Positions 16,629-26,747 of a stretch of 64,000 bases of DNA are shown here, in pieces. The notes below the pieces were generated by a model. The model did not search any database, had not been told where the DNA came from, and worked only from the letters and a program-made list of their open reading frames with translations. The stretch is from Halomonas sp. I5-271120. GTDB taxonomy: Bacteria; Pseudomonadota; Gammaproteobacteria; Pseudomonadales; Halomonadaceae. Position 1 is the first letter of the stretch; the number at the start of each line of letters is the position of its first letter. A program made the position numbers and the translations under genes. The stretch spans positions 2,914,001 through 2,978,000 of the forward strand of contig NZ_CP130701.1 in assembly GCF_030553075.1 (NCBI RefSeq). Reading direction: 5' to 3'.

Positions 16629-18122
<1,494 letters not shown>

Positions 18123-18476: not shown

Positions 18477-18665
18477 GACCGGTCATCGTCGAGCGCTGGT
18501 CTGCGGTAGTTGTCCAGAAATCTGGCGCACGTTCCAGCTACTGCATCCGGCGAGTATTGGGTGTAAAACCGCTTGTATGCTCGCCACAGGCAGAGCGCCG
18601 TCGCTTGCCTGCAATAGGCTTCATATAACATCCGATTTTTCGGAAGGATATTACAGGGCGTTTTG

Positions 18666-19568
18666 ATGATTAGTATTGAGCAGATGGGCATTGTGCTGGG
18701 GGCATTGCCAGACCCTGTATTTATAATATCGCGCAGCGGAAAATACGTGGCCGTGTTCGGTGGCCGTGATGCTCGTTACTACCACGACGGGAGTGGGCTC
18801 GTCGGGTTGAACATTGCCGATGTGGTGAAAAAAGAGAAGGCCGATTGGTTTCTGCAGCAGATCGGACTCGCCCTGGATTCCGGTAATCTATTGATTAGAG
18901 AATACGAATTAAGCAATAAGGATGTCAGGGGGTTGCGAGAGGACGGCCCCCAGCAGCCAATCTGGTTCGAAGGCCGTATTCAGGGGCTCGATTTTCAAGT
19001 GGACGGTGAAGCCGTGGTGCTCTGGGTTGCCAGTAATATTTCTGAGCGACACGACATGGAGGTCCAACTGCGTGCGCTCAGCGACACCGATCAGCTCACG
19101 GGGCTTTTTAACCGAAGAAAGCTTGAACTCGACCTGGCGCTTTTTCATGAAACCTTTGAAAGGCACTCAGTGCCGACGTCCATTCTGATGTTTGACCTTG
19201 ATAACCTTAAGAAAATTAATGATACCTTAGGGCATTATGAAGGTGATGAAATCATCGTGGCTGTCAGTAATGTTTGTCGCTCAGAGCTGAGAAAAACCGA
19301 TATTGCGTGTCGCTTTGGCGGGGACGAGTTTGTGATTGGCCTGCCCAATATTGAACTGGAGCACGCGGTGCAGTTTTCCAACCGGCTGCATGAGTGCTTC
19401 AACCGTGAGCTGAGTCGCTTTTGTATGGAGGGTATCTCCACCACCGTCAGCATCGGGGTAGCGACCATGCTGCCTGAAGACCGCTCGTATGAAGACACCC
19501 TGAAACGCGCGGACAATGCATTGTACGAAGCGAAACGAAGCGGCAAGAACCGGGTTGTTGCGGGGTGA
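18666..19568 (+). CDS. PAS-GGDEF diguanylate cyclase
   Basis: A 300-aa cytoplasmic protein making cyclic di-GMP from two GTP. A PAS-like sensor (about 5-135, from LPDPVFIISRSGKYVAVFGG to WVASNISERHDM) leads into a GGDEF domain (about 140-300) with DTDQLTGLFNRR, FDLDNLKKIND and an intact FGGDEF. RKTD ends five residues before GGDEF, so the RxxD inhibitory site for product feedback is present. No membrane segment is visible. A TTG at 18663 is an alternative start. The gene is visibly less GC-rich than its neighbours, which fits acquired DNA, and it lies between the two copies of the dispersed repeat. Confidence 0.93.
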   Translation: MISIEQMGIVLGALPDPVFIISRSGKYVAVFGGRDARYYHDGSGLVGLNIADVVKKEKADWFLQQIGLALDSGNLLIREYELSNKDVRGLREDGPQQPIWFEGRIQGLDFQVDGEAVVLWVASNISERHDMEVQLRALSDTDQLTGLFNRRKLELDLALFHETFERHSVPTSILMFDLDNLKKINDTLGHYEGDEIIVAVSNVCRSELRKTDIACRFGGDEFVIGLPNIELEHAVQFSNRLHECFNRELSRFCMEGISTTVSIGVATMLPEDRSYEDTLKRADNALYEAKRSGKNRVVAG

Positions 19569-19604
19569 TGCAGCACCATGCTTGTGCTGAAGGAGCGGAC
19601 CCAA

Positions 19605-20021
19605 GTGAACCCCAGAATCAGCATGATTACCCTCGGCGTGAGCGATCTGGCTCGTTCGATCCACTTCTACGAGCAAGGCCTGGGCCTGCCACGCATGGCA
19701 TCGCCGCCTACCGTGGCATTCTTCCCGCTCAACGGTAGCTGGCTGGGGTTGTATGGCCGCGACGCCCTTGCCGAGGACGCCGGCGTGCCAGCCGAAGGCA
19801 GTGGTTTTCGTGGCATGGCCCTGGCCCACAACCTGGGCTCTGAAGCCGAAGTCGATGCTCTTCTCGATCAGGCGGTGGCCGCTGGTGCCACACTGGTCAA
19901 GCCCGCGCAGCCGGTCTTCTGGGGCGGTTATTCCGGCTACTTTGTAGACCCCGACGGCCACCTGTGGGAGGTGGCCTATAACCCCTTCTGTTGGATCGGC
20001 CCCAGTGATGACGTTGCCTAG
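19605..20021 (+). CDS. VOC (glyoxalase/dioxygenase fold) family protein
   Basis: A 138-aa vicinal-oxygen-chelate protein made of two beta-alpha-beta-beta-beta modules. SMITLGVSDLARSIHFYEQG and LGLPRM start the first; the second ends in YSGYFVDPDGHLWEVAYNPF with the metal-ligand Glu of the family. Such proteins act as glyoxalases, fosfomycin or bleomycin resistance proteins, or unknown lyases; nothing here narrows it further. GTG at 19605 is chosen because AAGGAG lies 9 bases upstream; an ATG at 19578 lacks a ribosome site. Confidence 0.85.
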   Translation: MNPRISMITLGVSDLARSIHFYEQGLGLPRMASPPTVAFFPLNGSWLGLYGRDALAEDAGVPAEGSGFRGMALAHNLGSEAEVDALLDQAVAAGATLVKPAQPVFWGGYSGYFVDPDGHLWEVAYNPFCWIGPSDDVA

Positions 20022-20213: not shown

Positions 20214-20399
20214 TTCGTAACAGGTGGCTGGTATCGACCCAAAGCGGGCATGCCGGCAAAGGCAGCACGCGCGTTTATTGGTGTTATATAGCCACTTCGA
20301 CAAAAATATACAGAAAATCAATGGGTTGGTTTGGCGGTATAAGAATGTTGAACGCGCGTGCTCGTTCAAGTCAATAAACGAGTGAGCGGTCTAATACCT

Positions 20400-20406
20400 G
20401 TTAAAT
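20400..20406 (+). repeat. left recombination core of the first cassette
   Basis: GTTAAAT matches GTTRRRY and lies 18 bases before the first cassette's GTG start. GTTGAAC about 55 bases upstream may be the partner box of a degraded attI or attC site. Confidence 0.45.
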
Positions 20407-20423
20407 TTCGTCGGAGGACTCGA

Positions 20424-21284
20424 GTGCAATCCGTCTACGGCTGTATTGATATTGATCACCCAATGGTGGCGTGGAGCGCATACCGGGGAGTATTGGTCTC
20501 CGCTCAAGCAGGCAATGAGTATCCTAAGTGCCCAATTTCCGTGATGCTAGCAGGCATGCTCAAGCATCGTAATTCGCCGAGGCTTAGCAACGAATTAGCA
20601 ATTGAACGAATTCGCCAGTTGAAGTACCCAAGCAAGATATCTCGATTGGTTGGCATGTATCTCTTCGAAGAGCAGTCAGCATTTGAAGCGGCTAGAGAAT
20701 GGGGCGACCACTTCTCCTCTAAGTATCAGGCAGAACTCGGATTGTTGCCTGGAGCAACTGTCAGCCGCCACGACGCAAATTGGATTACATATGCACCATT
20801 GGATAGTAATGGCGACCTAAAGTCCATTGATTGGGTCGATCAATATTGGCTCGGCGAACCTTTTCCGAATCGAGCGCCGGTCTGGGAACTAATTGTTGAT
20901 GGTCGAGCTGCTGTATATGGAACTGAGCTCAGGGAGCGCGCGTACGCGACCATTAAAGCTGAATTTCCAAAGTGTGTAGCGATTTTGGAGGTGGGAAGAA
21001 TCGCTGCCCTCCTAGGATCGGACCTTGGACAAATTTCCTCTTGGTTGATAAAGGCCTCAGAGGCTGAACTCTCACTGCAGTACTACACTGATATGAGAGA
21101 TGCCCAAGATCCCCAATTCTTGGAGAAATTGAGGAATTATGATGGTCCAAAGAATCACGCTGATTTGGCGGTAGGCGGGGATAAGTTTTCAGTGCCGGAT
21201 TTACGGGGTCTTGGCGAGTCGTTTCACACAAAAGAACAGTTTTCCAAGCAATTCCTTGTGGGCGTCCATGCAAACAAAATTTAA
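20424..21284 (+). CDS. cassette 1 protein, unknown function
   Basis: A 286-aa soluble protein without signal peptide or membrane segment. The N-terminal part reads MVAWSAYRGVLVSAQAG; a central motif KISRLVGMYLFEEQSAFEAA is followed by WGDHF and a WELIVDGRAAVYGTELRERA segment. No family was recognised with confidence. GTG at 20424 is chosen because GGAGGA lies 5 bases upstream and the gene then begins inside the cassette rather than across its recombination core. The stop TAA overlaps the left box of attC1. Confidence 0.75.
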   Translation: MQSVYGCIDIDHPMVAWSAYRGVLVSAQAGNEYPKCPISVMLAGMLKHRNSPRLSNELAIERIRQLKYPSKISRLVGMYLFEEQSAFEAAREWGDHFSSKYQAELGLLPGATVSRHDANWITYAPLDSNGDLKSIDWVDQYWLGEPFPNRAPVWELIVDGRAAVYGTELRERAYATIKAEFPKCVAILEVGRIAALLGSDLGQISSWLIKASEAELSLQYYTDMRDAQDPQFLEKLRNYDGPKNHADLAVGGDKFSVPDLRGLGESFHTKEQFSKQFLVGVHANKI

Positions 21285-21350
21285 CCAGGGGCTCAAGCCG
21301 ACCGGTACTCCGCGGCGCTCCGTCCCGGCGGCTTAGCCCAAGCGTTATGT
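21279..21350 (+). repeat. attC1 recombination site
   Basis: The left box ATTTAAC overlaps the stop of cassette 1; the right box is GTTATGT. Between them GGGGCTCAAGCCG pairs with CGGCTTAGCCC, leaving one unpaired C, the extrahelical base expected in attC. Confidence 0.85.
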
Positions 21351-21870
21351 GTCTGCTCTGCATTCATCCCAATTTAGAGAGGAGCTGATTATTAGCACCT
21401 ACATTTCTATACTTGCTCTGCTTGTATCTTCCATCGCATTGTATATTTCATACAGGAAAGATACTTTTCAAGTTAGGCTGGAGTTAAACAGAAGTAATGT
21501 TTATAGAGATTTTTTAACCATAATTAATGATTCAACAAGTTCAATGCAGGTGCAAGCTATTGGTGTGGCTAGGTCTGACTGTAACATTGAGTGGGTAGAA
21601 AAAACTGGATGCAGTGAAACCAATAAAGGTGTTAATTTTCCAAGAACCATTGGTGGTCACCTTTCTTTTGAGGCTAGCTTAGAGCAACCTAATTCAAAGT
21701 ATGCTTATTGCGTTCAGTTGCCATGTGGACGAACATTTGTAATTAATCAATCTCTTATAAAAGATGTTTATCGCAAGCTGTATTATAAGTCTTTGATTTC
21801 ACGAATAACACGTGGAAGGAAAGGGTTTACAAAAAGCTATGTGCATCTTAGAGATTATGGGGTCAGGTAA
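21349..21870 (+). CDS. cassette 2 protein, membrane-anchored, unknown function
   Basis: Up to 173 aa. One N-terminal transmembrane helix (STYISILALLVSSIALYIS) is followed by a basic soluble domain of about 135 residues with no recognised family. The start is uncertain: GTG at 21349 overlaps the attC1 core, whereas the only good ribosome site (GAGAGGAG at 21377-21384) points to non-standard ATT or CTG codons at 21385-21391. Strongly AT-rich and Lys/Asn/Ser-rich relative to the flanks. The stop lies two bases before attC2. Confidence 0.7.
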   Translation: MSALHSSQFREELIISTYISILALLVSSIALYISYRKDTFQVRLELNRSNVYRDFLTIINDSTSSMQVQAIGVARSDCNIEWVEKTGCSETNKGVNFPRTIGGHLSFEASLEQPNSKYAYCVQLPCGRTFVINQSLIKDVYRKLYYKSLISRITRGRKGFTKSYVHLRDYGVR

Positions 21871-21872
21871 TC

Positions 21873-21927
21873 ACATAACAAGTGGTTCCAGGTGACACCT
21901 ACGGTGCACCTGAACCAAGCGTTAGGA
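21873..21927 (+). repeat. attC2 recombination site
   Basis: The left box is ACATAAC and the right box GTTAGGA. GGTTCCAGGTG pairs with CACCTGAACC apart from one extra base, giving a compact 55-bp attC hairpin. Confidence 0.88.
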
Positions 21928-21941
21928 TTGATCTTATTTTG

Positions 21942-22646
21942 ATGGATTACTTAAAAACAATCATAGCCTGGATCGAATTACACGGCGTGACTGTCGATCT
22001 CATAAAATGGCTTTTCGTCGGGATTTTGGCTTGGTTTTTAGGAGCTTTTCGCTTTTTGAAAACGAAGCTAAAGCGGCCTACCTTAGAAGTTGAGAGTCTT
22101 ACCAGTCGATGCGCGATAGAGGAACTCGGCGATATTGACGGAAACCCTGCTAACTTGCGGGCAACGTTTCTGATTGAAGCGGGTGTTAATAATCCAACAA
22201 CTGAGCCCATCGTCATACGAGATTTTTCCCTGCATATCAGAAGGCTAAAAAAGTGGCCGATTTGGCATGACGCACTGAATCCCACGACCCTACCTTCTAG
22301 GGTCCGTCATACGGTTGGAGACATCTCAAGATATCTGAAAAACTGGTTCTCAAACTTTTCGGAAGGACCCGAAAGCTTGACCTTGAATGGCAGAATAGAA
22401 AGCAGGGATTTTCAGTCGGGTTTCTTGATTTTCGTCTCAGCATCTTGGGGAAATATGCGTCCGAAGAAATTCGATAATGGGATTCCTGTTAAGTTAAAGG
22501 CCCGACTGACAACAGGCGAGATGCTATGTGCCAAGTCAATAATCCCAGTCCTTGAAGATCACTCAGTAATGGAGAGTTTGGTGCCAGGAATATTTGAACA
22601 TGTTGAGAACCCTTCAACGTGGAACATTATCCGAGAAAAATCCTAA
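21942..22646 (+). CDS. cassette 3 protein, membrane-anchored, unknown function
   Basis: A 234-aa protein. An N-terminal membrane helix (LIKWLFVGILAWFLGAFRFL) precedes a cytoplasmic beta-rich domain containing EAGVNNPTTEPIVIRDFSLH and SGFLIFVSASWG. No family was recognised. The frame is open from 21882, but that region is attC2, so ATG 21942 just after the recombination core is the credible start. The stop TAA sits inside the left box of attC3. Confidence 0.75.
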   Translation: MDYLKTIIAWIELHGVTVDLIKWLFVGILAWFLGAFRFLKTKLKRPTLEVESLTSRCAIEELGDIDGNPANLRATFLIEAGVNNPTTEPIVIRDFSLHIRRLKKWPIWHDALNPTTLPSRVRHTVGDISRYLKNWFSNFSEGPESLTLNGRIESRDFQSGFLIFVSASWGNMRPKKFDNGIPVKLKARLTTGEMLCAKSIIPVLEDHSVMESLVPGIFEHVENPSTWNIIREKS

Positions 22647-22743
22647 CCATTGCATCAAACTCGTTCCGGCCCAATGGGCCTCCACCGGACGGCTTTTTCT
22701 CCGCTTCGCTACGCAAAAGCCGCCGTTTAAGCAGGCGTTAGAA
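22641..22743 (+). repeat. attC3 recombination site (long form)
   Basis: The left box is TCCTAAC and the right box GTTAGAA, 103 bp in all. The outer arms TGCATCAAAC and GTTTAAGCA pair with an extra base; an inner CGGCTTTT / AAAAGCCG arm extends the hairpin. Confidence 0.82.
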
Positions 22744-22777
22744 GACCAATTCGATAGCTTTCTAGGGAGGATGTTGC

Positions 22778-23947
22778 ATGTATGAGGTTCAGTTAAAAGA
22801 GAGAATTGCAGGCTATTCCGTCTCTGTCGCAAAAAGAGGCGAAAAGGTTCAGGTTCAGGTCTCTGGTGCAACCTCAACAGAAGATGGTGATCTTCACCTA
22901 AAATATCTTAATGGCTTTCCCCAGACCATCTTGTCTATGCTTGAAGAGGTGCTTCAGCCCAGCGACATAAAAAGTATGGTTGTTCTAATTTCTAAAGACT
23001 TGAAGGCCAAGGTATATATTAATGAAGTTGAAGTTTATGGACAGGCATTCGTTAAAGCAAAAAATATTAAAAAAGGGCAAGCAGTCAGAAAGGATGATAT
23101 TTCAGGTTTCGAACGCATACAGTTAAGTGGTATTGAATTTTCTGAGGACCAAGCCTATTTTTGCATACTATCACTTGGCTGGGATAAGGCTTATATTTTT
23201 GACTTTTCGCCTTTAGATGAGCAATTAGATAGAAAAATTGAGTACAATGTAGAAAAACTTTTAGGGTCATACTTTTCCTATCTATCCTTTGGGTCTATCC
23301 ATAAGATATCTGCCTCAGACTGGGGTGGTATGTTAAGGCAAAATTGGTTTCCATTCTATGCACTGAAGTTTTCTACTGTCGAATCAATTATTAGTTATGC
23401 AAGGGCTGAGTGGAATATAGATGAGCTTATTAATAAAATAGAAAGTGATGCTATTTTTTATATAGAAGAAAGAAAGCCAATATGGGGTAGCGACGAAAAC
23501 CTTTCGCCATTCATTTGTTTTTTGGATTCGGCGCTTTCTAGGCACAAAGCAGATGATTTTGTTAGCTCATCGTCAATTATATATCCAAAGATTGAGGCTT
23601 TAATTAGGAAAGACTTTATTGCAGACAACCCTGAAAAGGAAGGGCGTCAGCAAAGATTACTTGTTGAGCATATTACAGAAAAGACCCTCAGAAGCATTTC
23701 GGCACTCACGACCTTTATTCCTGATAAATTCAAACGCTACCTAGAAGAGTGTTACTTTAAGGATTTTAGCGTTACAGATGATAATACGGTCAGCAGGCAT
23801 TCCGTTGCTCATGGAGCAAGCACAATTGACATGTTTGATAAAAAGGCATCGTTACTTGGGCTACTGGTATTTTCTCAAATAGCCGAATACATCCAGCAAT
23901 CTTCTAACAAGTCAATTCAGCCGACCGCTGACGCGTTGACTGATTGA
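22778..23947 (+). CDS. cassette 4 protein with C-terminal HEPN-type motif
   Basis: A 389-aa soluble protein. The N-terminal 270 residues match no family I recognise. The C-terminal part is helical and contains SRHSVAHG (R340 to H345), an RX4H motif of the kind that forms the ribonuclease site of HEPN proteins, followed by KKASLLGLLVFSQIAEYI, a common HEPN ending. The last residues (NKSIQPTADALTD) are encoded by attC4 itself, a frequent signature of integron-borne genes. GGGAGG lies upstream of the ATG. A toxin or defence role is plausible but inferred. Confidence 0.75.
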   Translation: MYEVQLKERIAGYSVSVAKRGEKVQVQVSGATSTEDGDLHLKYLNGFPQTILSMLEEVLQPSDIKSMVVLISKDLKAKVYINEVEVYGQAFVKAKNIKKGQAVRKDDISGFERIQLSGIEFSEDQAYFCILSLGWDKAYIFDFSPLDEQLDRKIEYNVEKLLGSYFSYLSFGSIHKISASDWGGMLRQNWFPFYALKFSTVESIISYARAEWNIDELINKIESDAIFYIEERKPIWGSDENLSPFICFLDSALSRHKADDFVSSSSIIYPKIEALIRKDFIADNPEKEGRQQRLLVEHITEKTLRSISALTTFIPDKFKRYLEECYFKDFSVTDDNTVSRHSVAHGASTIDMFDKKASLLGLLVFSQIAEYIQQSSNKSIQPTADALTD

Positions 23948-23957
23948 AGGGTTAGGC
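23902..23957 (+). repeat. attC4 recombination site overlapping the 3' end of cassette 4
   Basis: The left box is TTCTAAC and the right box GTTAGGC. TCAATTCAG pairs with CTGATTGA with one extra T. The stop codon of cassette 4 (23945-23947) lies within the right arm. Confidence 0.88.
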
Positions 23958-23970
23958 ATTTGGAGGACTT

Positions 23971-24603
23971 TTGAGCAGGCTCTATACCTACATCGTCAAG
24001 GTCGATTCAGGATTGGCACCAAATCCATTTAGCGGCTGGTGTTCTTTAGCGGTCTGTACTCCGAATCACCAAGGCAGTGCTGTGCGACAAGGCGATTGGA
24101 TTGCTGGGTTCTCTCCCAAGGGTGATGGCTACCAGTTCATCTATGCGATGAAGGTAGATGAGCGCATCCACATGAATGACTATTTTCACGATCCTCGGTT
24201 TCAATCCAAGAAGCCAATAATGAACGGGGGATGGAAAGAGAGGTGCGGCGACAATTTTTACTGGCAAAATTGCAAAGGGGCATGGCTTCAGCTTGCTAAC
24301 CCCTTCCATGAGTGGATGCTGGATAAAGACACCCATGTCCCATACGTGTTTGTTGGTAAAGAGTTTTGGTATTTGGGAAGAGCCCGGTCAGACGTACCCA
24401 TGGAATTTTTGGCTATGATCGGAGGTCGGGGCGCAAGGGTAAACCATCCTGCAGGTTTGCCGGAAAGCTTTATGCGGTGGGTTCGCCATAACTTCAAGCC
24501 AGGTATCACCGCGGCCCCCTTGGATGCAGAGGCCGAGAGTTGTACGCAATCTGGGGCCATGCTGTCCGCCACTTGCAAGCTGAGTTCGTGCAACAATGCC
24601 TAA
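23971..24603 (+). CDS. cassette 5 protein, Nmad2-type (nucleotide modification associated domain 2)
   Basis: A 210-aa protein whose N-terminal 140 residues follow the pattern I associate with Nmad2: YTYIVKVDSGLAPNPFSGWC, then VCTP, RQGDWIAGFSPK, FIYAMKVDERIHMNDYFHDP and GDNFYW. Nmad domains were named for genomic association with DNA base-modification systems of phages and bacteria; the biochemistry is not established. Start TTG at 23971 has GGAGG four bases upstream, just after the attC4 core. The C-terminal 45 residues are less conserved and Cys/Ser-rich. The stop overlaps the left box of a degenerate attC. Confidence 0.75.
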   Translation: MSRLYTYIVKVDSGLAPNPFSGWCSLAVCTPNHQGSAVRQGDWIAGFSPKGDGYQFIYAMKVDERIHMNDYFHDPRFQSKKPIMNGGWKERCGDNFYWQNCKGAWLQLANPFHEWMLDKDTHVPYVFVGKEFWYLGRARSDVPMEFLAMIGGRGARVNHPAGLPESFMRWVRHNFKPGITAAPLDAEAESCTQSGAMLSATCKLSSCNNA

Positions 24604-24670
24604 CTAATCTATGCACCAGTGGAAAAACCGCAGCGAAGCCGAGATTTTGCCACCGGTGATGGTGAACTTT
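24598..24670 (+). repeat. degenerate attC5
   Basis: The left box GCCTAAC is good and overlaps the stop of cassette 5. CACCAGTGG-AAAA pairs with TTTT-G-CCACCGGTG around a 16-base GC-rich loop, but no GTTRRRY box follows (GGTGAACT stands in its place). It is probably a mutated site, so cassettes 5 and 6 may now move only together. Confidence 0.55.
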
Positions 24671-24689
24671 ATTTTCCTTGGAGAAAAAT

Positions 24690-25319
24690 GTGAGATCCCC
24701 CAAGACAGTCAAAGCATTGGAAGAACTCGGTCGGGTAAGGCTTTCACGATCTTTCTTCATGCGAGACTTCCTTCACTCAGAAATATCCCAGATTGAAGGC
24801 GTTCCAAATGTTCCGGACAATCCAGATGTGGCGATCAAGGCTGGGACAGCTTTATGTGAAAAAGTACTTGAGCCCATACAGCAAAAGTTTGGGCGTATCA
24901 GCATTCGCTCCGCATATCGATCGTCTGCTGTCAATGCCAGAGGCGCAGAGAACAAGAATCAATACAACTGTTCAAGAAACGAAAGCAATTTCGCCGGGCA
25001 CATTTGGGATATCCCAGATAAGGATGGGCATGTTGGGGCAATGGCCTGCATCGTAGTAAATTCCTTCCTTCCTTACTTTGAGCGAACTAAGAATTGGGAG
25101 TCATTGGCGTGGTGGATTCATGACAACGTGCCTGAGTATGCCTCGATGTATTTCTTTCCCAAACTTTGCGCCTTCAATATCGGATGGCATCAAAAAACTG
25201 TTAAGTCGATTAGTAGCTATATCCCTCCAAAGGGTTGTCTAACAAAGCCGGGTATGACCAATTATGCAGGTGACCACAGCACCGAGTATGCGGCTATGCT
25301 GAGAGAACTTGGAGTTTAA
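24690..25319 (+). CDS. cassette 6 protein, M15-peptidase-like
   Basis: A 209-aa soluble protein. The segment ISIRSAYRSSAVN, then NFAGHIWDIPD and SLAWWIHDNVP, has the order SxxR...H...D...H of zinc D-Ala-D-Ala peptidases of family M15, so a hydrolase acting on cell-wall-like peptides is possible; the match is by pattern only. FFPKLCAFNIGWH and a YIPPKGCLTKPGM ending look conserved-family-like. GTG at 24690 is preferred, with TTGGAG 6 bases upstream; TTG at 24678 would add four residues. Confidence 0.7.
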   Translation: MRSPKTVKALEELGRVRLSRSFFMRDFLHSEISQIEGVPNVPDNPDVAIKAGTALCEKVLEPIQQKFGRISIRSAYRSSAVNARGAENKNQYNCSRNESNFAGHIWDIPDKDGHVGAMACIVVNSFLPYFERTKNWESLAWWIHDNVPEYASMYFFPKLCAFNIGWHQKTVKSISSYIPPKGCLTKPGMTNYAGDHSTEYAAMLRELGV

Positions 25320-25385
25320 GAGCTTGGTGATATCTATTGCTGGCGCCTCTACAGTCAAGACTTGTGCTGCCAAATTGTGGAAGAA

Positions 25386-25469
25386 ACATAACCAGTGCAG
25401 GCACGGCGACACCCATTACATTGCGCCTTCGGCTCCATTCCATGGGAGCGCATGATGCAAGCGCTATAT
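25386..25469 (+). repeat. degenerate attC6, right end of the array
   Basis: The left box is ACATAAC; the right box position holds GCGCTATAT where GCGTTATAT would be expected. The interior can fold (GCGCC-TTCG-GCTCC region) but imperfectly. The nine bases after the core (TCTGCTCTG) are the same as just after the attC1 core. Confidence 0.5.
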
Positions 25470-25758: not shown

Positions 25759-26040
25759 ATGGCTACGCTAATCGTGTTTCACGAGGTCGAGGATGGCGAG
25801 CGCTGGGCGAGGGCCTGGAAGAAAGGAGCGGGTAGTCGGCACGAGATGTTCGCGCAGATCGGTGTCAGCGCGCGTACGTTCAAGGATGCAGAGCACCCGA
25901 ACTCGGTGGGGCTGATTCTGGAAGTGCCGGACATGGCGCGGTTCCAGACCTTCATGGCGTCTGACGAGGCCAGGCAGGCGATGGAAGAAGACCGACTGAA
26001 AGTCGATTCCATGCGCACGCTGGGTGAGTTCACGCCCTGA
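25759..26040 (+). CDS. small dimeric alpha/beta-barrel-like protein, unknown function
   Basis: A 93-aa protein starting MATLIVFHEVEDGERWARAW. The beta-alpha-beta pattern with VGLILEVPDMARFQTFMASD resembles the ferredoxin-like fold of antibiotic-biosynthesis-monooxygenase or dimeric-barrel proteins, which often bind small ligands as dimers; the assignment is by pattern. GGAGG lies upstream. First chromosomal-type gene to the right of the cassette array, in normal GC-rich codon usage. Confidence 0.75.
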   Translation: MATLIVFHEVEDGERWARAWKKGAGSRHEMFAQIGVSARTFKDAEHPNSVGLILEVPDMARFQTFMASDEARQAMEEDRLKVDSMRTLGEFTP

Positions 26041-26270
26041 TGCTGCGATGTCTGGGGCTTTAGGTGACGGGGCTTTAAATGGCGGCGGGACTTTGGAGCA
26101 GGGCTGCAAAAGGGATGTCAGCCGAGCCATGTTGTCTATGTAGTGCCTCGGCGTTACGTGATGGGTTGAATAAGGCGTCTGCTACCATCATTACCTGATG
26201 TAGCGCCGTCGCATGCGCGAAGACGCCTGACTTCGTTTCCAACGACATCCACTCCAAGGAGCTTGCCCTC

Positions 26271-26747
26271 ATGGCTTTTGCACCCTCGAGCATGCAGCTC
26301 ACCAGTTCCGCGTTCTCTGCCCACGGGGCAATTCCCGCCAAGCACACCGGGGAAGGAGAGAACGTCTCGCCGGCCCTCAGCTGGAAAGACGCTCCCGAAG
26401 GCACCAAGGGCTTCGCGGTGATCTGCCATGACCCGGATGCGCCGCTGGTACAGAATGGCAGCTACGGCTTCGTGCACTGGCTGCTCTACAACCTGCCGGC
26501 CGACACCATGTCGCTTGATGAGGCGACGACGGTGGGCACCAGCGGCGTCAACGATACCGGCAAGAACGGCTATAGCGGCCCGATGCCGCCGGAAGGCCAT
26601 GGTGACCACCTGTACTACTTCTGGGTGCTGGCGCTGGATGCGCAAACTGATCTGCCCGAGGGCCTGACGCAGCCCGAGCTGCTGACCAAGCTTGAGCCGC
26701 ATATTCTTGGCATGAACCGCCTGGTCGGCATCTATCGCCGCGGCTGA
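26271..26747 (+). CDS. YbhB/YbcL-family PEBP (Raf-kinase-inhibitor-like) protein
   Basis: A 158-aa phosphatidylethanolamine-binding-protein fold. The family marks are PAKHTGEGENVSPALSW, AVICHDPDAPL near the anion-binding pocket, FVHWLLYNLP, and GYSGPMPPEGHGDHLYYFWV. There is no signal peptide, so it is cytoplasmic. The ligand and physiological role of bacterial PEBPs are unclear. It stands alone, about 190 bases before a strong terminator. Confidence 0.93.
   Translation: MAFAPSSMQLTSSAFSAHGAIPAKHTGEGENVSPALSWKDAPEGTKGFAVICHDPDAPLVQNGSYGFVHWLLYNLPADTMSLDEATTVGTSGVNDTGKNGYSGPMPPEGHGDHLYYFWVLALDAQTDLPEGLTQPELLTKLEPHILGMNRLVGIYRRG

Follow-up and report, generated by a model that had tools for sequence, protein, structure and literature searches.

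An integron, as usually described, is one integrase (encoded by intI) standing beside one attI site. The locus considered here is a cassette array without such a neighbour in the chromosome of Halomonas sp. I5-271120, and it lies within a stretch of 64,000 nucleotides referred to below as the window (C1:2914001-2978000 of the host genome G000, which has two contigs and 4.04 Mb). A cluster of attC sites lacking an integron integrase (CALIN), as defined by IntegronFinder, has at least two attC close together and no intI nearby. The window array resembles such clusters in these respects and differs from them in having an attI and a leader of its own and in being part of a multi-locus set. According to the available text on IntegronFinder 2.0, attI sites outside class 1 are not detected (PMC9024848), so the window array would be reported by this program as a bare CALIN. 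With sedentary chromosomal integrons it shares an attI head, cassettes, attC sites and a fixed chromosomal locus; in contrast to them, it is small, has no adjoining intI and is one of several per chromosome.

Two other described systems come close. The secondary CALINs of Xanthomonas are likewise integrase-less arrays at conserved chromosomal loci distant from intI, and are described as mobilisable in trans, but no attI is reported at those loci in the available text (PMC12444791). In the delta-attI cassettes of class 1 and class 2 integrons, attI sequence is also found outside its usual place; there, judging from the accessible part of the report, attI pieces replace attC within resistance arrays, whereas here whole leader-attI heads start arrays (PMC12901181). 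A literature search, with preprints and most subscription journals outside its scope, revealed no publication on integrase-less attI copies.

Judged from its sequence, the window array is an integron that has its own leader-attI head but no integrase, and for lack of the enzyme it is decaying. It probably belongs, as a stranded member, to a distributed integron in which the docks (attI) would be filled in trans. According to this proposal, many chromosomes of the family would hold attI docks at fixed loci; cassettes carrying their own attC would enter at attI through site-specific recombination (G|TT), loaded and unloaded at the docks in trans by an integron integrase whose gene lies elsewhere or arrives by transfer. 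With only an intI remnant left in this strain, the array would be stranded and decaying. Dispersed docks, if true, would separate the enzyme from its docking sites and explain concretely how many CALINs arose; whether IntI loads cassettes in trans at distant loci could then be tested directly.

The head and the attC sites of the window array

The array starts with a head (20235-20403, leader plus 64-bp attI) that was missed in the initial annotation; the head ends at the GTT with which cassette 1 starts (Table 1). The segment 20232-20380 recurs in the host genome at C1:2238252 (87%) and C1:2637818 (79%), and partly at 3144425. Altogether the host has five head-bearing cassette loci: A (about 107-111 kb), B (2238 kb), C (2638 kb), D (the window array, 2934 kb) and E (3141-3144 kb), of which A, C, D and E have attC above threshold and B has degenerate ones.

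In six relatives whose intI scores above the cut-off (G013, G192, G091, G098, G138 and G039), the last 65 bp of the head match DNA on the strand opposite to intI, 156-174 bp ahead of the point where the intI match starts; in G001 and G035 the attI stands beside a partial intI. Since the same match adjoins intact intI in relatives, the conserved end of the head is a predicted attI, homologous to the attI beside the intact intI of the family. This homology makes it very unlikely that the cassettes entered at scattered non-classical attG sites, such as those described for E. coli (Loot et al., as cited in the sources available), with no true attI involved. CALINs at secondary loci are indeed known (PMC12444791, available text), but the same family-specific attI starts most of the arrays described here. 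Furthermore, no match for the head was found among 72,556 plasmid and 50,697 phage records, and in an order-wide search with the 64-nt attI only seven of 293 genomes gave a match, six of them from this family. An exact pattern search for attI in viral contigs found none. A consensus promoter scan listed no promoter in the head, and promoter-like sites of the region did not rise above shuffled sequences (Pc test).

Behind the head, six plus-strand open reading frames (ORFs) occupy 20424-25319, in agreement with the six same-strand genes of the initial annotation. The region is also AT-richer than its flanks, as had been claimed: GC content is 0.38-0.50 at 21-25 kb, 0.55 at 25-26 kb and 0.56-0.69 in the kilobases outside 20-26 kb. 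The attC sites were evaluated with a scorer that combines position weights and pairing, trained on 91 attC from 19 of 20 stretches beside intI of other genomes, and with a covariance model built from 83 arm pairs of the same intI-linked stretches; the arms were cut to equal length, as MAFFT misaligned the right arms of whole attC. An earlier detector with strict box pairing had found few sites even in intI-linked arrays and was replaced by the trained scorer. Six attC had been proposed. Four of them, attC1-attC4, are found by both methods (covariance E values computed over the window), all on the plus strand and within 2.7 kb, each overlapping or directly trailing the stop of a cassette gene; the other two are degenerate, attC6 being a weak covariance match and attC5 standing at noise level. 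Comparison of the sites confirmed that the stems vary from one to another. Elsewhere in the window the score does not exceed 23.4, and the maximum in a reversed control of 546,226 bases is 21.2 (24.5 with an earlier seed model). In the whole genome, with 150 of 3676 candidates scored, all nine covariance matches at E<=1 fall in arrays with an attI or a leader, namely A, C, D and E; attC3 was missed in this search. An Rfam scan of the window gave no match, and a terminator scan of the region did not rise above shuffled sequences.

A fixed genomic or defence island, in which the inverted repeats would be terminators or chance, might be suspected from the one-strand, AT-rich genes and the two weak repeats. 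It is refuted by attC scores far over the reversed control together with the turnover of cassettes, no cassette DNA at this locus being shared with the two relatives G059 and G034 (see below).

A search of the whole host genome with TIGR02249 gave no match above the cut-off, which bears out the claimed absence of an integrase and places the array among those with clustered attC and no integron integrase nearby; with no intI next to its attI, the window array is not a complete integron. Seven other TIGR02249 matches are taken for other tyrosine recombinases. The only trace of intI is a remnant at C1:111412 beside array A, which covers profile positions 2-66 and lies 2.8 Mb from the window along the contig. 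Since this short remnant is the sole integrase trace in the strain, array D would be stranded and decaying. The initial reading as an integrase-less attC cassette cluster therefore holds, but not as a bare one: a full attI heads the array, which is one of several such in the chromosome.

Table 1. Features of the window array and its flanks (positions in the window)
Feature	Position	Strand	Remarks
Aldehyde-dehydrogenase-like gene, left landmark	16629..18122	+	precedes heads also in G019, G062, G099
GGDEF gene and glyoxalase gene, left flank	18663..20021	+	common to relatives
Leader of the attI head	20235..20293	+	CGACCCAAAGCGG...TTATTGGTGTTATATAGCC; marks the head class mostly without integrase
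Spacer between leader and attI, 46 bp	20294..20339	+	within the head
Predicted attI, core GTT 20400-20402	20340..20403	+	94% identity to the 64-nt attI query; homologues beside intact intI
Cassette 1 gene	20424..21284	+	best homologue in Halomonas salinarum, 97%
attC1	21279..21350	+	score 38.8; covariance E = 0.0012
Cassette 2 gene, 173 aa	21349..21870	+	no Pfam match; N-terminus hydrophobic (by eye)
attC2	21873..21927	+	score 54.4; covariance E = 3.4e-6
Cassette 3 gene, 234 aa	21942..22646	+	no family match
attC3	22641..22743	+	score 41.5; covariance E = 0.016
Cassette 4 gene, 389 aa	22778..23947	+	C-terminal part probably HEPN-like, conserved R340 and H345
attC4	23902..23957	+	score 38.8; covariance E = 3.7e-5
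Cassette 5 gene, 210 aa	23971..24603	+	Nmad2 (PF18753, 143 bits)
attC5, degenerate	24598..24666	+	left box kept, GTT core lost; noise level
Cassette 6 gene, 213 aa	24678..25319	+	M15-peptidase-like; 4521 homologues at E<=1e-3
attC6, degenerate	25386..25469	+	15.0 bits, E 0.43; 3' core GCTATAT in place of GTT
93-aa ORF and YbhB/PBP gene, right flank	25759..26747	+	common to relatives

Heads and integrases in the family

Among 250 genomes of the family surveyed for intI, 75 reach E<=1e-50 and 58 exceed the TIGR02249 cut-off. Heads were searched in 201 genomes, taken as a subset of these, with four candidates scored per genome. The query 20225-20420 matched 135 of the 201 genomes and 16 of 24 genera, and many of the matches stop at the GTT of 20400-20402 or a few bases past it. 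By the E<=1e-50 criterion, of which intI fragments would fall short, 55 genomes have intI: 38 have intI and head, 97 head only, 17 intI only and 49 neither. At a stricter head threshold (E<=1e-8), heads remain in 95 genomes, 68 of them without intI.

Copies of attI were counted in 17 near-complete genomes, 16 of which gave matches. From 51 raw matches, 38 were kept; five of those dropped were opposite-strand readings of palindromic copies and eight were weak or partial (E >1e-5). At least one attC lies within 6.5 kb downstream of 31 of the 38 copies. The 247 kb of downstream DNA contain 89 attC, all co-oriented and none opposite, and the upstream control (within 2.5 kb, 95 kb in total) contains six same-strand attC and one opposite. 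When the vicinity was searched with 20 IntI proteins of the family as queries, three copies had a full intI upstream, ten a partial match and 25 none, 19 of these 25 being followed by attC. One of the ten partial matches (G142 3410436) belongs to a different tyrosine recombinase, not to IntI.

By their upstream DNA the heads fall into two forms, one linked to intI and the other preceded by the leader that starts CGACCCAAAGCGG; by eye, the two seem alignable across the last hundred bases. With the leader called at E<=0.01 (weakest match 22 bp), 15 of the 16 leader-bearing heads have no integrase match within 400 bp upstream, the single exception being the non-IntI gene just mentioned, whereas such a match precedes 11 of the 22 leaderless heads (Fisher p 0.005). 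In the fetched loci taken together, 51 copies of the leader have an attI no more than 250 bp behind them; 14 lack one in that interval. The left end common to the leader heads suggests that they descend from an ancestor already devoid of intI.

Several single heads are peculiar. A lone attI-like copy in the host genome, at C1:1799487-1799542 (L137), may be an empty dock, with attC absent up to a distance of 6.5 kb. Two attI of the same orientation, 1.4 kb apart with one attC between them, are found in G003 (L093, 1507-2956), as if a dock lay inside an array. At locus B of G081 (L216, about 11083) and in L166, L170, L173 and L176, the head breaks off at the GTT of the leader itself and other sequence takes over, with attC further on in several cases, as if this GTT were a second insertion point. 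Heads in G182 (L159, L160) and array A of the host (L029, 10124-11059) lie near the same HMG-CoA-lyase-like ORF (by eye), perhaps a shared dock locus.

Conserved loci, changing cassettes and loading in trans

In G059, assigned to the same species, locus D retains the GGDEF, glyoxalase, 93-aa ORF and YbhB genes at 86-98% together with a decayed head; in the congener G034 the GGDEF, glyoxalase and YbhB genes (84-93%) and a head are present. Across 3 kb behind the head, neither genome has any similarity to the window, in keeping with the modular contents claimed in the initial annotation. The head is absent from this locus in G011, G070 and G048, and G081 has part of the leader only; a clean empty site was not found, G011 and G070 holding other DNA there. 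The interval between the left landmark gene, which we take to be mmsA, and ybhB also holds a head in two other genera (G062 and G099). In G099 the head occurs there twice in a row (two overlapping stretches), and 45 bp from the 3' end of the mmsA-like gene are repeated upstream of the second attI head (L149, 6894-6938), suggesting duplication of the dock. Locus C is common to the host, G034, G059 and G070, and locus B to the host, G034, G048 and G059 and partly to G070 and G081.

Heads at shared loci were compared in 40 pairs, of which 23 were usable, with a matching upstream flank of 300 bp or more and, for both heads, a downstream stretch of 1 kb or more; the other 17 were excluded because the upstream match or a downstream stretch was shorter. 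No downstream similarity at all was found in 19 of the 23, and the remaining four share 37-372 bp. Heads of G126, G117 and G142 are 98.5-99.5% identical between flanks of 89-92%, with nothing similar behind; G074 has a head of 86-87% at the same place. A restriction gene adjoins this locus, so horizontal spread is possible. Among the shared-locus clusters that look non-vertical, one lies by another tyrosine recombinase (G142 3410436, G048) and one by a type I restriction gene (names by eye).

The main rival explanation is that separate ordinary integrons each lost their integrase without any loading in trans, the conserved head being what remained. It agrees with the partial intI matches that precede several heads, one of them (78 residues) at array A, and with the decaying attC5 and attC6 and the other degenerate heads of the host, and it accounts for part of the set. 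As an account of the whole it is rather unlikely. The 25 heads without an intI trace speak against it, and the single non-intI left end that leader heads share across loci and genera would be hard to obtain through independent losses. Moreover, the conserved head is followed by wholly different cassettes in G126, G117, G142 and G074, genomes without intI at E<=1e-50. Finally, an intI-linked and an orphan array have a cassette in common in G140, a single-contig genome with one intI match. There, 744 bp that include a 229-aa ORF are 100% identical in the intI-linked array (C1:2173471-2174214) and in an orphan-attI array about 1 Mb away (C1:1183456-1184199); the identity begins and ends at GCGTT cores, and the flanking DNA is unrelated.

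Loading of several docks in trans agrees with the pattern across the family. We infer that the heads would be functional attI sites, kept for the loading of cassettes, and that an integrase would act at them in trans. A more far-reaching version can be put forward only tentatively and may well prove wrong: several purpose-built, integrase-free docks (leader plus attI) per chromosome, of a lineage distinct from the intI-linked attI and at fixed loci across genera, would all be served in trans by one integrase that comes and goes, with arrays turning over even after loss of their own intI.

A number of observations weigh against loading at dispersed docks. Because the 64-nt attI query is similar to orphan heads, intI-linked attI that have diverged are under-counted (for example, partial matches in G080 and G090, and also G140). 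Seven of the 38 heads have no attC within 6.5 kb, and the ten with a partial integrase match indicate that part of the set is plain decay. Within the window's own genus, the conservation of heads does not exceed that of flanks (locus B: head 79%, flank 87%). The G140 cassette is the one clean case among 47 array pairs from 19 genomes, some of these pairs being short or orphan-orphan; a wider genome set added no other, and independent capture from outside could explain it. Other shared pieces are insertion-sequence-like (G001, G013, G035, G099) or part of a flanking gene (G182). Insertion-sequence-like elements also lie near attC in several arrays of G013 (L037, L038, L141), G035 (L260, L262) and G001 (L249, L251).

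Cassette genes and the question of defence

The HEPN ribonuclease motif is R-x4-6-H. In the cassette 4 protein, R340 and H345 agree with this spacing and are at least 90% conserved across 40 sequences, so its C-terminal part is probably HEPN-like. Relatives of this gene were inspected at seven loci: in two, Thalassolituus (67%) and Marinomonas (70%), it terminates in an attC of its own, one has an attC below threshold and four have none. Foldseek searches with two modelled cassette proteins gave no match at E<=0.001.

The suggestion that the array is a defence reservoir was not borne out for its six cassettes, among which PADLOC found no known defence gene, the sole match having an E value of 0.027. 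In the sister arrays of the host, matches to PtuA/PtuB, ThsB, PD-T4-7 and TIR defence proteins were obtained among the ten proteins submitted, and because of these anti-phage matches the docks may distribute a pool of defence genes across the chromosome. Array E (L069, 13500-16500; C1:3141500-3144500) contains one cassette in three tandem copies with a period of 944 bp, whose 265-aa ORF is identical in all three and resembles a periplasmic binding protein by eye; the copies are followed by one further cassette and then by a PtuA/PtuB pair.

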